Assembly: GCF_004342445.1 (NCBI RefSeq)
Contig: NZ_SLWW01000009.1
Coordinates: 124,001-188,000, forward strand
Source of the DNA: Rhodovulum euryhalinum
GTDB taxonomy: Bacteria; Pseudomonadota; Alphaproteobacteria; Rhodobacterales; Rhodobacteraceae
Direction: 5' to 3'
Length of the DNA: 64,000 nt
Shown: one piece after another, positions 17,262 to 46,181 of the stretch
Position numbering within the stretch: the stretch's first letter is position 1
Layout of the letters: the number at the start of each line of letters is the position of its first letter
Position numbers and translations under genes: made by a program
The notes under the pieces: model-generated
Seen by the model: only the letters and a program-made list of their open reading frames with translations
Database searches by the model: none
What the model was told of the DNA's origin: nothing

Positions 17262-18062
17262 CTAGCCGTCGATCCGCGCCCCCATCTCTGCCAGCGCGCG
17301 CTGGTAGACCGAGGCCGCGTTCCATTCCTTGAGCACCTCGAAGTTGTGGCTGCCGGGCTGGTAGGGCTGGCCGGGCCGCCAGCCCTTCTGGCGCAGGTAG
17401 TTCGCGGTCGAGGCCAGCGCGTCGGCCATGTCGTTCAGGTCGATCCGCCCGTCGCCGTTGCCGTCGCGGCCATAGGCCAGCGCGTTGCCGGGCAGGAACT
17501 GGGTGTGGCCCAGTTCGCCATGCATGGCGCCGATCGCGGCGGGCGACATCATCCCCCGGTCGATCATCTTCAGCGCTCCGATCAGGTGGGGGGTGAAGAA
17601 TCCGGGCCGGCGGCAATCATAGGCCAGCGTCGCGGTCGCGTTCAGCACGTTGGCGTTGCCCATGAAGCCGCCAAAGCCGGTTTCCATCCCGTGGATGGCG
17701 ATCAGCACGCCCGCGGGAACGCCGTAGCCCTGTTCGAGCGCGGCATAGAAGCCGGGGTTTCGCGCCTTGCGGCTGCGCCCCTGCGAAACGATCACATCGC
17801 AGCCGCGCTTCTGGCAGAACTCGGGGTAGCTGAGCTTGAAGCTTTTCTGGCCGCGGTCGGCGTTGATCGTGGCCTGGGAATACTGTGTTCCGCCAAGCGC
17901 GGCGAGCCCGCGCTGGCCGACGCCGGCCCGGGCCGCCTCGCTGGCGAAATCGCGTTTCCAGGCGTCGAACCCCGCGGCCGAGTTCCCGCAAGAGGCAGCC
18001 GGGGCGGGGGCGGAGAGACACAGAGCGGCAAGGGCGGACAGGGCAAGCGTGCGGAACGGCAT
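17262..18062 (-). CDS. lytic murein transglycosylase (MltB-like, exported)
   Basis: A 266-residue exported enzyme with signal peptide MPFRTLALSALAALCLSAPA. It belongs to the MltB-type lytic transglycosylases that cleave peptidoglycan with 1,6-anhydro formation. The catalytic glutamate lies in IAIHGMETGFGGFMGNANVL, and other family blocks are GELGHTQFLPGNALAYG and an EF-hand-like DGNGDGRIDLNDMADAL followed by STANYLRQKGW. The mature protein has several cysteines (SCGN, CQKRGCDV, DCRR), consistent with periplasmic disulphides. No peptidoglycan-binding domain is seen. The 360-base upstream gap contains a small-RNA candidate. Confidence 0.92.
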   Translation of the reverse strand: MPFRTLALSALAALCLSAPAPAASCGNSAAGFDAWKRDFASEAARAGVGQRGLAALGGTQYSQATINADRGQKSFKLSYPEFCQKRGCDVIVSQGRSRKARNPGFYAALEQGYGVPAGVLIAIHGMETGFGGFMGNANVLNATATLAYDCRRPGFFTPHLIGALKMIDRGMMSPAAIGAMHGELGHTQFLPGNALAYGRDGNGDGRIDLNDMADALASTANYLRQKGWRPGQPYQPGSHNFEVLKEWNAASVYQRALAEMGARIDG

Positions 18063-18260: not shown

Positions 18261-18287
18261 AAAAAAAGGCCGAGCATAAGCTCGGCC
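18261..18287 (-). terminator. intrinsic terminator
   Basis: Minus strand: perfect 8-bp GC-rich stem with UUAU loop followed directly by seven T's. It ends the candidate small RNA and could also stop read-through from the LysR gene at 18425-19327. Confidence 0.9.
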
Positions 18288-18338
18288 CAAGTCCAACAGG
18301 GAGGTAAAGACGAAAGCGAAACTTCCGCCTTCGTCCCA
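18261..18338 (-). ncRNA. candidate small RNA with two hairpins and a CCUCCC linker
   Basis: On the minus strand a 10-bp stem (GACGAAGGCG / CGCUUUCGUC, with one G-U pair and a 7-base loop; 18309-18335) is followed by a single-stranded linker containing UUUACCUCCCUGUUGG. Next comes a perfect 8-bp hairpin GGCCGAGC-UUAU-GCUCGGCC (18268-18287) and seven U's, a textbook intrinsic terminator. Upstream, CTTGAA and CCATAAT lie 15 bases apart, a promoter-like pair that resembles heat-shock sigma (RpoH) sites. The predicted transcript is about 78 nt. The CCUCCC linker is complementary to ribosome-binding sites and recalls stress-induced small RNAs of Rhodobacter. It is not clearly part of the flanking LysR transcript, whose stop is at 18425. 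Confidence 0.6.
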
Positions 18339-18424
18339 GCAATTATGGACGAGATCGTGCAGGTTCAAGCCCAAAATGGCAGCGCGCCAGCATGACCGTC
18401 ATGCGTGTGACAGATATCTCACAA

Positions 18425-19327
18425 TCAGGACGTGTCCTTTTCCTTCTGGCGCCGTTCCATGATCTGTTCCGTGATGAACTCGCGGAAGGCCGAGATCCTG
18501 CGCGAGGCGCGCAATTCCTCGGGATAGGCCAGGAAAACCGGCACCTCGTTCGATTCGATGCCGTCCAGCACCCGAACGAGTTGCGGATGATCCTCGGTCA
18601 CGTAGTCGGGCAGCACCCCGATCCCCAGCCCGTTCAGCACGGCCTGAAGAACGCCGAAATAGTTGTTCACCGTCAGCGTCGATCGAATCCGGTAGGTCAT
18701 CAGTTCGCGCACCAGTTGCGCGCCCGCACTGACCTGGGTCGAACTGGTATTCTGGCAGATCAGCCGGTGGTCGGCCAGATCGTCCAGGGTTTCCGGTGTG
18801 CCGTGGGCGTCGAGATAGGGTTGGGTCGCGTAAAGCCGCATCCTGACGCTCATCAGGCGCAGGCGGATCAGGTCGGCCTGGCTTGGCTCCTTCATGCGGA
18901 TCGCGACGTCGGCCTCGCGCATCGGCAGGTCGAGCACCTGTTCGGACATCATCAGGTCGATCCGAAGCTCGGGGTAGCGCTCGTAGAGCATCGGCAGCCG
19001 CTTTGCCAGCCAGAGCGAGCCGAAGCCGGTGGTGGTGGTGACCCGCAACTCGCCGAACACCTCTTCGACGCTGTCGCGGATGCGCGCCACCGCGGTTTCC
19101 AGCCGCTTGCCCATCGCCGTGGTCGCGTCGAACAGCAACTCTCCCTGCTCGGTGAGAATCAGTCCGCGCGCGTGGCGATGGAACAGGGTTGATCCAAGCG
19201 ATTCTTCCAGCGCGCGAATCTGGCGCGAGACGGCGGATTGCGACAGGTGCAGCGTTTCACCCGCATGGGTCAGGCTGCCCGCGTCGGCCACCGCGTGAAA
19301 GATCCTGAGCTTGTCCCAATCCATCAT
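18425..19327 (-). CDS. LysR-family regulator divergent from the indolepyruvate oxidoreductase gene
   Basis: A 300-residue LysR-type regulator with a canonical winged helix (DKLRIFHAVADAGSLTHAGE, then LHLSQSAVSRQIRALEESLG) and an effector domain (LRVTTTTGFGSLWLAKRLPM onward). The end is charged (ERRQKEKDTS). It is transcribed away from the fused indolepyruvate oxidoreductase gene, with a 154-base intergenic region that has a direct and an inverted repeat over a good promoter. It therefore probably controls that gene in response to an aromatic or branched keto acid; the effector is not shown by the sequence. Confidence 0.92.
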   Translation of the reverse strand: MMDWDKLRIFHAVADAGSLTHAGETLHLSQSAVSRQIRALEESLGSTLFHRHARGLILTEQGELLFDATTAMGKRLETAVARIRDSVEEVFGELRVTTTTGFGSLWLAKRLPMLYERYPELRIDLMMSEQVLDLPMREADVAIRMKEPSQADLIRLRLMSVRMRLYATQPYLDAHGTPETLDDLADHRLICQNTSSTQVSAGAQLVRELMTYRIRSTLTVNNYFGVLQAVLNGLGIGVLPDYVTEDHPQLVRVLDGIESNEVPVFLAYPEELRASRRISAFREFITEQIMERRQKEKDTS

Positions 19328-19481: not shown

Positions 19482-22400
19482 ATGACCCGTCAGGATGTCA
19501 GTCTTCACGACCGTTACGATCTTTCCAGGTCGCCGGTGCTTCTGAACGGCACACAGGCGCTGGTTCGGCTGATGCTGATGCAGAAGGTGCGCGACCGGGC
19601 CGCGGGACTTCACACCGCGGGTTATGTCACCGGCTATCGGGGCTCGCCGCTGGGCGCGGTGGACATGACGATGGCCAGGGCGAACGCGGATCTCCAGGCC
19701 GCGGACGTGCTGTTCCAGCCGGGGCTGAACGAGGACCTGGCCGCGACCGCGCTGTGGGGCACGCAGCAGGCGGAAGTGCGGGGCGAGGGGAAATACGACG
19801 GTGTCTTCGGCCTTTGGTACGGCAAGGGGCCGGGGGTGGACCGTTCGGGCGACGTGATGCGGCACGCCAACCTTGCGGGCACCTCGCGCCATGGCGGGGT
19901 GCTGATGGCGATGGGCGACGACCACACGGGCGAGTCCTCGACCACCTGCCACCAGTCCGACTGGGCGATGGTCGATGTCTACATGCCGGTGCTGTCGCCC
20001 GCGGGGGTGCAGGAAATCCTCGACTACGGGCTCTATGGTTATGCGCTTTCGCGCTATGCGGGCGTCTGGGTGGGGCTCAAGCTGATGAAGGACACGGTCG
20101 AGGTGACGTCCGTCGTGGATGGCCGCCCGGACCGCATGGCCTTCGTCACCCCCGACTTTCCGATGCCCGAGGGCGGGCTGAACATAAGGCTGAACGATCA
20201 CTGGGTCGCGCAGGAAGCGCGCATGATCGACCACAAGCGGTTCGCGGCCGAGGCCTTCGCCCATGCCAACCGGATCGACCGGCGGGTGTGGGGGAAACCG
20301 GGGGCGAAGATCGGGCTGGTGGCGGCAGGCAAGAACTGGCTCGATCTGGTGCATGCGCTGGGGCTTCTGGGGATCGACGAGACGCAGGCCGAGCGGCTGG
20401 GGATCACCACCTACAAGGTGGGCCAGACCTTCCCGCTGGACATGAAGGGGTTTGCCGACTTCGCCGAGGGGCTGGACCTGATCGTGGTGGTCGAGGAAAA
20501 GCGGAAACTCATCGAGGTGCAGGCAAAGGAGGCGATCTTTCACAATCGCCGCGGCCGGCGCATCTATGGCTGGAAGAACGACCGCGACGAGGAGCTGTTT
20601 CCCACGCGCTACGCGCTCGACCCGGTGATGATCGCGGAAAAACTGGGCGCGGTGCTGATCGAGGAGGGGCGCGGCAGCGAACGTCTGACCGCGGCGCTGG
20701 AGCGTATCCGCGAGGCGCGCCGGGCGGACAATGCCGAGGACCTCGCCGCCCGTCTGCCCTATTTCTGCGCGGGCTGCCCGCACAACACCTCGACCCGCGT
20801 GCCCGAGGGCAGTCGCGCCTATGCCGGGATCGGCTGCCACATCATGGCGATGTGGATGGACCGCGAGACCAGCGGGTATACCCACATGGGCGCCGAAGGG
20901 GCGAACTGGATCGGCGAGGCGCCGTTCTCGACGAGGGGTCACGTGTTCCAGAACCTGGGCGACGGGACCTACAATCATTCGGGGCGGCTGGCGATCCACG
21001 CCGCCATCGCCGCGGGTGTGAACATCACCTACAAGATCCTCTACAACGACGCGGTCGCGATGACAGGCGGGCAGGGCAACGACGGCGGGCTGACAGCAAA
21101 CCAGATCGTGGCGGAACTGGTTGCGGCCGGGGTGAACAAGGTCGAAGTGGTCTACGACGAGAAGGAAGACGTCGATCCGCGAGCCTTCCCCGCGGGCGTT
21201 GTCTGCCATCCGCGTGCAGATCTGATGCAGGTCCAGGAGAATCTGCGCCGGACCGAAGGCGTGACCGCGATCGTCTACATCCAGACCTGCGCGGCCGAGA
21301 AGCGCCGCCGCCGCAAGAAGGGCGCCTTTCCCGACCCGGATACGCGGGTCTTCATCAACACCGACATCTGCGAGGGCTGCGGCGATTGCGGGGTGCAGTC
21401 GAATTGCGTGGCCATCGTGCCGGTCGAGACGGAGCTTGGCCGCAAGCGCGCCATCGACCAGTCGGCCTGCAACAAGGATTTCTCTTGCCTCAAGGGGTTC
21501 TGCCCCAGCTTCGTCACGCTGAAGGGGGCGGCGGTGCGGCGCGAGGCGGCGGCCCGGATCGAGATCGGCGACCTGCCCGAGCCGGTGCTGCCGCCGATCC
21601 ATGGCACGTTCAACGTGGTCATTACCGGGGTCGGCGGCACGGGCGCCGTGACCATCGGCGCGATCCTTGCCATGGCGGCCCATGTCGACGGCAAGGGCGC
21701 GGGCATGATGGAGATGGCGGGCCTTGCCCAGAAGGGCGGCGCGGTTCATATCCACTGCCGGATCGCCGAGACGCCCGCCGGGATCAGCGCGATCCGCGTG
21801 GCGACCGGCGAGGCGGACGCGGTGATCGGCGGCGACCTGGTGGTGACGGCGGGGGCCAGAACCATCGGGCTGATGACGACGGGGCGCACCGGCGCTGTGG
21901 TCAACAGCCACGACATCGTGACCGGCGCCTTCACCCGCGACCCGCAGTTCCGCGTGCCTTCGGACCGGCTGGAACTGGCGCTTCAGGCGCGGCTGAAGAA
22001 TCGCCTGCACCTGATCGATTCGACGGAACTTGCCCGCAGGCTGATGGGCGACACGATCTATTCCAACATGATCGTCACCGGCGCGGCATGGCAATGCGGG
22101 CTGCTGCCGCTGTCGCACGCGGCGATCCTGAAGGCGATCGAACTGAACGGCGCGGGAGTCGAGGGGAACCGGCGTGCCTTCGAGATCGGCCGGTGGGCCG
22201 CGCTGAACCCCGAGGCCGCGGGCCGGGTCGTCGCGGCAGAGATGGTGGAAAAGCCGAGGACGCTGGCCGAAAGGATCTCGTTCCGCGAGGCGCATCTTGC
22301 CGACTACCAGTCGCCACGCCTCGCGCGGCGCTACCGGCGCCTTGTCGACAAGATGTCCGACCCGCGGCTGAAGGAGGCAGTGGCCAGGGGCTACCACAAG

Positions 22401-22886
22401 CTGCTGGCCTACAAGGACGAATACGAGGTCGCGCGGCTGCATTTGCAGACCGCCGCGAAGGCGCGCGCGGAATTCGCGGGCGAGTTCGAGATCACCTACC
22501 TGCTGGCGCCGCCCTTCCTGGGGGGCAAGGGGCCGGACGGGCGGCCCGCCAAGCGGCGCTTCGGGCCGTGGATGGACCGGGGATTCCGGGTGCTGGCGGG
22601 GATGCGGCGGTTGAGGGGAACGCCGCTCGATCCGTTCCGCTGGCAGGAAGAGCGGCGGCGCGAGCGGGCGGCGATCCGGGTCTACGAGTCGGACATGGCG
22701 GAGGTGCTGGCGGGGCTGACGCCCGACCGGCTGGAGGCTGCGGTGGCGCTGGCCGAATTGCCCCTTTCGGTGAAAGGCTTCGGCCCGGTCAAGGCGAAGG
22801 CCGAGGTCGAGGCGGCCGAGCGGCGCGCCTCGTTGCTGGCGGCGTTCCGGGCGGGGAGCGAGGGGCTGCGGCAGGCGGCCGAATAG
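19482..22886 (+). CDS. indolepyruvate ferredoxin oxidoreductase, single-chain (alpha-beta fused) form
   Basis: An 1134-residue enzyme that joins, in one chain, parts found as IorA and IorB in archaea. It oxidatively decarboxylates aryl-pyruvates (from aromatic amino acids) to aryl-acetyl-CoA with thiamine diphosphate and ferredoxin. N-terminal pyruvate-oxidoreductase-like region: GYVTGYRGSPLGAVDMTM. TPP-binding part: YFCAGCPHNTSTRVPEGSRA, then NLGDGTYNHSG. Cysteine cluster: CEGCGDCGVQSNC, later CNKDFSCLKGFCP. C-terminal gamma-type domain: ITGVGGTGAVTIGAILAMAA. Length and order are normal for the proteobacterial fused family. In aerobes the true electron acceptor and keto acid are often unproven. 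It is monocistronic and divergent from its LysR neighbour. Confidence 0.92.
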   Translation: MTRQDVSLHDRYDLSRSPVLLNGTQALVRLMLMQKVRDRAAGLHTAGYVTGYRGSPLGAVDMTMARANADLQAADVLFQPGLNEDLAATALWGTQQAEVRGEGKYDGVFGLWYGKGPGVDRSGDVMRHANLAGTSRHGGVLMAMGDDHTGESSTTCHQSDWAMVDVYMPVLSPAGVQEILDYGLYGYALSRYAGVWVGLKLMKDTVEVTSVVDGRPDRMAFVTPDFPMPEGGLNIRLNDHWVAQEARMIDHKRFAAEAFAHANRIDRRVWGKPGAKIGLVAAGKNWLDLVHALGLLGIDETQAERLGITTYKVGQTFPLDMKGFADFAEGLDLIVVVEEKRKLIEVQAKEAIFHNRRGRRIYGWKNDRDEELFPTRYALDPVMIAEKLGAVLIEEGRGSERLTAALERIREARRADNAEDLAARLPYFCAGCPHNTSTRVPEGSRAYAGIGCHIMAMWMDRETSGYTHMGAEGANWIGEAPFSTRGHVFQNLGDGTYNHSGRLAIHAAIAAGVNITYKILYNDAVAMTGGQGNDGGLTANQIVAELVAAGVNKVEVVYDEKEDVDPRAFPAGVVCHPRADLMQVQENLRRTEGVTAIVYIQTCAAEKRRRRKKGAFPDPDTRVFINTDICEGCGDCGVQSNCVAIVPVETELGRKRAIDQSACNKDFSCLKGFCPSFVTLKGAAVRREAAARIEIGDLPEPVLPPIHGTFNVVITGVGGTGAVTIGAILAMAAHVDGKGAGMMEMAGLAQKGGAVHIHCRIAETPAGISAIRVATGEADAVIGGDLVVTAGARTIGLMTTGRTGAVVNSHDIVTGAFTRDPQFRVPSDRLELALQARLKNRLHLIDSTELARRLMGDTIYSNMIVTGAAWQCGLLPLSHAAILKAIELNGAGVEGNRRAFEIGRWAALNPEAAGRVVAAEMVEKPRTLAERISFREAHLADYQSPRLARRYRRLVDKMSDPRLKEAVARGYHKLLAYKDEYEVARLHLQTAAKARAEFAGEFEITYLLAPPFLGGKGPDGRPAKRRFGPWMDRGFRVLAGMRRLRGTPLDPFRWQEERRRERAAIRVYESDMAEVLAGLTPDRLEAAVALAELPLSVKGFGPVKAKAEVEAAERRASLLAAFRAGSEGLRQAAE

Positions 22887-45819: not shown

Positions 45820-46140
45820 AAAAAGGGAAGTGCAGGCTTCTGTTGCCAGGTGCCTGCGAACCCCGCCTTACGTTGCTAGACGCAAGGGCTTAGATTTGGT
45901 TTTGCGCACTGCTTACGCAGCGAGCGCCACCGGAGCACGGTTGTCATTGGCAACTATCATGCTTGCACCGATAACGGTGGTAGCTCACCGGGCGAAAGCC
46001 ATCCCCTTTAGACGTCCGTCGATCCTGTTTCGGCCCCATGATCCCGCCAATGTGGGATTTTGGTGGAGCCGCCGGGTACCGCCCCCGGGTCCGATCCGCT
46101 TATTACGGGCGCGTTTATCGCCATAGTCCCTTGCGGGACA
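45820..46140 (-). ncRNA. ssrA: two-piece (circularly permuted) tmRNA
   Basis: On the minus strand the acceptor piece comes first and ends CGGCTCC-A-CCA at 46061. Before it a T-arm-like CCGGG-GGCGGTA-CCCGG lacks the usual TTC loop, as known for alphaproteobacterial tmRNA. After a 23-base intervening segment the coding piece starts GGGGCCG at 46037, which pairs with the acceptor end over seven pairs with G-U at pair three, the alanine identity element. The tag frame (45913-45951) reads ANDNRAPVALAA then TAA. The terminator GCAGGC...GCCTGC (45832-45857) with a T run ends the gene near 45820. tmRNA frees stalled ribosomes and tags proteins for ClpXP, aided by SspB (43059-43526). Confidence 0.95.
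45832..45857 (-). terminator. intrinsic terminator of ssrA
   Basis: Minus strand: GCAGGC / GCCTGC 6-bp stem, then ACTTCCC and a run of five T's at 45824-45820. The stem may also be part of the mature coding piece. Confidence 0.6.
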
Positions 46141-46145
46141 GCACG

Positions 46146-46174
46146 AATGTAGGGGCATGGGCCGAGTCGTGCAA
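46146..46174 (-). promoter_or_regulatory. promoter of ssrA
   Basis: Minus strand TTGCAC (46174-46169), exactly 17 bases, TACATT (46151-46146). Transcription would begin near 46139, where a GTCCC-GCAA-GGGAC hairpin starts. Strong match for a stable RNA promoter. Confidence 0.75.
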
Positions 46175-46181
46175 GGGGCGC

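Follow-up and report, generated by a model that had tools for sequence, protein, structure and literature searches.

The 64,000-nt stretch of Rhodovulum euryhalinum DNA analysed here (the window) carries a predicted minus-strand small RNA gene that, by synteny, is the ortholog of R. sphaeroides SorY. With a probability of roughly 0.85, we read its product as an Hfq-type trans-acting sRNA that would be driven by an RpoH-type sigma factor in stress and whose linker would block translation starts, transporter mRNAs likely being among its targets. This reading draws on gene anatomy, conservation, orthology to SorY, a conserved promoter, and one strong complementarity to an mRNA leader. With it, the SorY type is no longer confined to one species but reaches most of the sampled Rhodobacteraceae, as the Rfam SorY model matches 185 of 198 genomes of that family (one per genus).

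Anatomy, conservation and promoter of the sRNA gene

The locus comprises the following features, in window coordinates:

18364..18369, minus strand: -35 box CTTGAA, RpoH type (mean majority identity 0.94)
18342..18348, minus strand: -10 box CCATAAT, 15 nt from the -35 box (mean majority identity 0.88)
18261..18335, minus strand: sRNA gene, ortholog of R. sphaeroides SorY by synteny (fold z -5.9; Rfam SorY 63.2 bits, E 1e-12; found in 16/16 genus genomes, own included)
18309..18335, minus strand: 5' hairpin of 10 bp with a 7-nt loop (arms 18335-18326 and 18318-18309, one G-U pair)
18289..18308, minus strand: single-stranded linker UUUACCUCCCUGUUGGACUU, anti-Shine-Dalgarno seed, invariant in the genus
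18261..18288, minus strand: intrinsic terminator (stem-loop 18288-18267, seven T's 18267-18261)
17262..18062, minus strand: lytic murein transglycosylase gene, downstream and outside the unit (Pfam SLT_2; start 18062)
18425..19327, minus strand: LysR-type regulator gene, conserved upstream neighbor (Pfam HTH_1 and LysR_substrate)
19482..22886, plus strand: divergently oriented gene of the indolepyruvate ferredoxin oxidoreductase family, belonging to the synteny (NCBIfam NF009589)

An earlier note on this DNA had proposed an unannotated minus-strand small RNA with a 10-bp 5' hairpin, a single-stranded linker, and a terminator with seven U's behind a promoter of the heat-shock-sigma type, and all of these elements are present on that strand where the note had placed them. 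In the direction of transcription, CTTGAA is followed by 15 nt, CCATAAT, six bases, the hairpin from about 18335, the linker, and the terminator, whose 9-pair stem (one G-U pair included) runs into seven U's. The predicted RNA is about 75 nt long, starting near 18335 and ending within the U tract at 18261, and its fold is far more stable than that of 200 dinucleotide shuffles (-38.5 versus -21.5 kcal/mol, z -5.9). Since 0.9 terminator-like sites are expected by chance in a stretch of this length and one was found, anatomy alone is no proof of a gene; it is conservation that raises the site above chance level.

A 140-base blastn query found matches in 37 of the 61 genomes searched: in all 16 of the genus (own included), in 18 of 21 from other genera of the family, and in 3 of 24 from the rest of the class, the last three being weak (E 3e-4 to 0.009). 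In half of the 16 genus matches the alignment begins with the -35 box (query position 1-3), in the other half further in, and every one of them reaches the end of the U tract. The linker UUUACCUCCCUGUUGGACUU is invariant in the 16 Rhodovulum sequences, and the 30 blastn loci, which include 14 from other genera, all share an identical ACCUCCCUGUUG. The hairpin sequence diverges beyond alignment across these 30 loci, while the 36-nt 5' segment still folds with z <= -2 in 26 of them.

In 15 distinct genus rows, four base pairs are changed on both sides, three of them among the ten pairs of the 5' hairpin, a count that 6 of 500 shuffles reach; the terminator has 8 stem pairs in the genus, with 99% of cells paired. 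A structure slid by -3 columns also yields four two-sided changes, although only 44% of its cells are paired versus 94%. Because the slid structure reaches the same count, the stem covariation lends modest support.

Conservation is higher in the promoter boxes than in the spacer between them, with a mean majority identity over the 16 genus sequences of 0.94 for the -35 box, 0.55 for the spacer, and 0.88 for the -10 box, compared with 0.85 for the hairpin and 1.00 for the linker. CTTGAA is present in 11 of the 16, TTGAA in 15, and TTG in all. At the sequence level, an RpoH-like promoter is thus conserved. Its spacing (N15) agrees with that of published RpoH1 promoters, CTTGAA-N15-16-CCTATAT (PMC4843759), and in R. 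sphaeroides the TTG is reported to be essential with both RpoH factors, A-12 mattering for RpoHII and T-9 for RpoHI (PMC3441632). The SorY gene of R. sphaeroides has CTTGAA-N16-CCTAAAT where the window sRNA has CTTGAA-N15-CCATAAT, and groES in the Rhodovulum genome has CTTGAC-N16-CCTAGGT. SorY is listed among the RNAs under RpoE/RpoHI/RpoHII control (PMC8307010), and sigma-70 promoter prediction called no promoter at the sRNA site. The pattern CTTGAA-N14-16-CCATWW occurs at five sites in the genome, compared with two for the pattern read backwards and one for wrong spacing; no recognisable heat-shock genes lie behind the other four sites, and this genome-wide search adds no support of its own for RpoH control. 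From the conserved boxes, we infer such control in Rhodovulum.

Elsewhere in the window, positions 45829-46178 on the minus strand hold a tmRNA of alphaproteobacterial type, which the Rfam permuted tmRNA model also matches.

Orthology to SorY and distinction from SorX and CcsR

At its own cut-offs, Rfam gives no match at the sRNA site. Ranked by E-value, the SorY model (RF02651) matches it with 63.2 bits (E 1e-12), below the gathering cut-off of 111. Only one of the 198 Rhodobacteraceae genomes exceeds this cut-off, that of R. sphaeroides itself (G090), with 115 bits at C4:1632645, a position that agrees with the published SorY transcription start site at 1,632,642 (PMC6238624). At this locus, the same-strand gene upstream is a LysR gene 75% identical to that of the window, and the oxidoreductase gene is divergent, which is the window arrangement. 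A same-strand LysR gene is found upstream in 30/30 blastn loci and in 11/12 loci found with the SorY model (L044 and L017 among them being one place), and the oxidoreductase gene falls inside the fetched flank in 26/30 and 8/12, respectively. The LysR-sRNA order is also the same in P. denitrificans, where it lies on a 1.73-Mb replicon; two of the sRNAs published for this species, intergenic 134 and intergenic 60, are of a suitable size (PMC5107571).

The window RNA and SorY are alike in locus, linker, terminator sequence, and possession of their own RpoH-like promoter, and the linker ACCUCCCUGUUGGACUU together with the terminator is identical to the Rfam SorY consensus over UACCUCCCUGUUGGACUUGGGCCGAGCUU. 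The sequence of the 5' hairpin differs, and this accounts for the 63 bits against a cut-off of 111. The Rfam match and the synteny shared with R. sphaeroides SorY lead us to assign the window RNA as a SorY ortholog by synteny and not as a member of RF02651, which misses it because the SorY model is too narrow. Our analysis shows why Rfam misses the SorY type outside R. sphaeroides and supplies a conserved locus and promoter for testing it.

The neighboring genes also raise two other explanations. In the window, about 90 nt separate the LysR stop codon from the sRNA and a scan found no other terminator-like site in between, so LysR transcripts may end in the sRNA terminator, and the RNA could be tied to such a transcript instead of having its own promoter. 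We consider this improbable, as CTTGAA and CCATAAT are kept while their spacer varies, and SorY of R. sphaeroides is reported to have its own promoter with its 5' end at the transcription start site (PMC6238624). A still less probable explanation makes the region a leader or attenuator of the transglycosylase gene, which lies downstream on the same strand, and not a trans-acting RNA. We rejected it, since only 6 of 30 loci have this gene at a distance of up to about 1.5 kb from the sRNA, the linker stays invariant where the downstream neighbor changes, and about 200 nt separate the sRNA terminator from the gene.

The SorX model (RF02784) scores 41.6 bits (E 4e-9), below its cut-off of 46.6. 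SorX has the ACCUCCCUGUUGGA core and the terminator in common with the window RNA, but it is a 3'-UTR product of an OmpR-like gene (PMC6238624) and its locus lies behind that gene, whereas the neighbor of the window RNA is LysR; in R. sphaeroides, SorX scores 88.8 bits at its own, separate place. Given the score and the different locus, identity with SorX was rejected. Rfam lists SorX and SorY without a clan.

The RNAs of the CcsR type carry a repeated CCUCC motif. A CU-rich anti-Shine-Dalgarno linker behind an RpoH-like promoter, as seen in the window RNA, is what a stress RNA of this CcsR or cuckoo type would also display, and the earlier note had suggested kinship to Rhodobacter RNAs of oxidative stress and a comparison with CcsR. 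The kinship stands, with SorY as the relative by Rfam match and synteny, whereas the link to CcsR is not supported. CcsR1-4 of R. sphaeroides are cotranscribed with ccaF1 (PMC8307010), while the window RNA is one RNA with a single CCUCCC that is not beside ccaF1 and has LysR and transglycosylase genes as neighbors. None of the 17 Rfam matches at the sRNA belongs to a CcsR-like family, and the SorY synteny speaks against it as well, so that this identity, of all those considered the least credible, was rejected. A search with RF02345 (ar15), presumably kin of CcsR, gave no match at the sRNA, but its controls were equally silent, so this negative proves nothing.

Candidate targets and proposed action

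Under heat or singlet-oxygen stress, an RpoH-type sigma factor would transcribe the sRNA and its own terminator would end it. The 5' hairpin may protect the 5' end, and the U-tailed terminator is expected to load Hfq. SorY itself is induced by singlet oxygen and binds Hfq. Pairing of the exposed ACCUCCCUGUUGGACUU with Shine-Dalgarno regions could then keep ribosomes from binding and promote mRNA decay. Likely targets include the mRNAs of transporter substrate-binding proteins, as with SorY on takP, and our candidate is a TRAP dctP gene. As judged from sequence, the sRNA probably turns down nutrient-transporter mRNAs under stress; cells under oxidative stress would be expected to take up less organic acid and to direct less flux into the TCA cycle.

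The R. sphaeroides protein L157 matches PDB 2hzk over residues 1-365 (E 7e-255); the entry names it SmoM, and we take it to be TakP. In this species, SorY acts on takP, which encodes a TRAP binding protein (PMC6238624, PMC9670543). Among nine R. sphaeroides TRAP binding-protein starts, of which that of L167 is wrong, takP (L157) has the best predicted pairing, at -24.1 kcal/mol, indicating that the pairing method finds the known target. A further difference from R. sphaeroides is that no close takP was found in the Rhodovulum genome, where the best TRAP match is 35% identical.

The best candidate target in the Rhodovulum genome is the TRAP dctP gene (L113:3110-4144, minus strand; Pfam DctP), which starts just above position 124144 of G000:C1 and is preceded by apparent dctQ and dctM genes (judged by eye). 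Its 32-nt leader plus start codon is antisense to the sRNA (18283-18314 of the plus strand) in 29 of 32 positions, interrupted by a 4-nt insertion that would form a bulge. This site scores 21.1 versus 13.5 for the next best among 414 sampled start regions (21% of the genome), and none of 5000 simple shuffles reaches it. Four dctP homologs were compared, all plasmid-borne and 43-57% identical over the matched part; the site is partly kept in those of Ponticoccus and Phaeobacter and absent from those of Leisingera and Paracoccus. The leader itself (G000:C1:124145-124176, minus strand, in L113 and L156) resembles a copy of the sRNA antisense strand, which might reflect a strong target or a shared origin.

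Broader tests for target enrichment, in samples for which gene calling was crude (own scripts), were weak or negative. Non-self AACAGGGAGG sites lie at start codons in 5/5 cases in the Rhodovulum genome and in 4/8 and 3/6 cases in two relatives (one of the latter 3 having its ATG at a distance of 14 nt), and AGGGAGG alone lies at a start in 19/36 cases; given the relatives and this base rate, the 5/5 is no longer striking. Binding-protein genes make up 4 of the 30 best predicted targets in an 800-kb sample versus 2 of 30 Shine-Dalgarno-matched controls, which is no clear enrichment. The starts of TRAP genes pair better than background (p 7e-5), mainly through strong Shine-Dalgarno sequences, and the matched comparison gives p 0.06. 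This test used 14 of the 18 Rhodovulum TRAP loci, leaving out L168, L170, L171, and L173; among all 27 TRAP loci, the start is clearly wrong in L167, L168, and L170 and probably so in L173. Pairing was not stronger at starts followed by a signal-like N terminus (p 0.13-0.18).

A probable wider family with MmgR, and sibling RNAs

The Rfam MmgR model (RF00519, "suhB") matches the window RNA with 29.9 bits (E 1.4e-4), below its cut-off of 41, and in a search of the whole Rhodovulum genome the window RNA is the best of eight matches (E 5e-4). The MmgR/alpha-r8 RNAs, including SisA-D of Caulobacter, are alike in layout, with a hairpin, an unpaired CCUCCCU, and a terminator; their core is UUUCCUCCCU, whereas that of the window RNA is UUUACCUCCCU, with one extra base. 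They also differ in location, as an N-formylglutamate amidohydrolase gene adjoins MmgR/alpha-r8 in most species (PMC12559287), while the window RNA lacks it and is flanked by the LysR, transglycosylase, and indolepyruvate oxidoreductase genes.

A model built on the 30 blastn loci with the terminator stem as its sole structure (R1) matches 94 of 240 alphaproteobacterial genomes (E <= 0.001), an upper bound, since some matches span only the terminator. On 864 kb of Rhodovulum DNA, its sole strong match is the sRNA (94.6 bits), the next being the sRNA's own terminator read backwards (19 bits). From each of 27 genomes outside the family, the best locus was fetched; Rfam places 12 of these loci in MmgR and one in BjrC1505, all above cut-off, and the other 14 lie under the cut-off of every sRNA family. 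The reverse test was weak: the MmgR model ranks R. sphaeroides SorY (24.8 bits, E 0.012) only third in its genome, after two sites that by eye resemble the ends of protein genes, and at E <= 1 it matches 13 of 14 control genomes (one above cut-off), compared with 10 of 14 for the SorX model (none above).

On these sequence comparisons, SorY-type and MmgR RNAs likely form one superfamily, without this being proven; convergence on an anti-Shine-Dalgarno motif plus terminator is a conceivable alternative. We would put at even odds the more specific proposal that SorY and SorX, published as distinct singlet-oxygen RNAs of R. sphaeroides, are the Rhodobacterales branch of alpha-r8/MmgR/SisA (with BjrC1505), a carbon-metabolism RNA moved under a heat-shock sigma factor and tuning the starts of organic-acid transporter genes, in Rhodovulum through the near-full-length antisense match to the dctP leader. 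If the link to MmgR and SisA is true, nutrient control in Caulobacter and Sinorhizobium and photooxidative stress in Rhodobacter would belong to one RNA family, and the takeover of a carbon-metabolism sRNA by a stress sigma factor, as well as a CrfA-like sponge in Rhodobacterales, would become testable.

Our literature search found no SorY/SorX-MmgR link; the primary SorY, SorX, and alpha-r8 phylogeny papers lay outside it and may state one. Within this search, PMC9670543 was the one paper to name both SorY and MmgR, SorY in the text and MmgR in a reference title only, and none named MmgR together with SorX. Alpha-r8 has been described in all Alphaproteobacteria except Rickettsiales, with MmgR called its sole member characterised until then (PMC12559287), and given this range, the authors may have counted SorY-type loci.

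That the window RNA is single-copy, another suggestion of the earlier note, holds for blastn, which finds one copy in the genome, but the SorX model adds a sibling (L067, G000:C13:93893-93973, plus strand; 39.3 bits). The core of this sibling, UCUUCCUCCCUGAUGGACU, is nearer to the MmgR core than that of the window RNA; it has a divergent ATPase gene (by eye) as a neighbor and lies ahead of a 212-aa IalB-like gene. A weak third candidate of the SorX type (L068, G000:C8:127937-127993, minus strand; 24.1 bits, E 0.0026) has CUCCUCCUCCCUGU and a terminator and lies between genes that resemble, by eye, phasin and phaR; it could derive from a 3' UTR of the PHB system. MmgR affects the PHB system in Sinorhizobium. 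Two other genomes carry this RNA type in tandem, the copies being separated by a few hundred bases, at G016:C9:60607-60860 and G379:C1:3175638-3176246.
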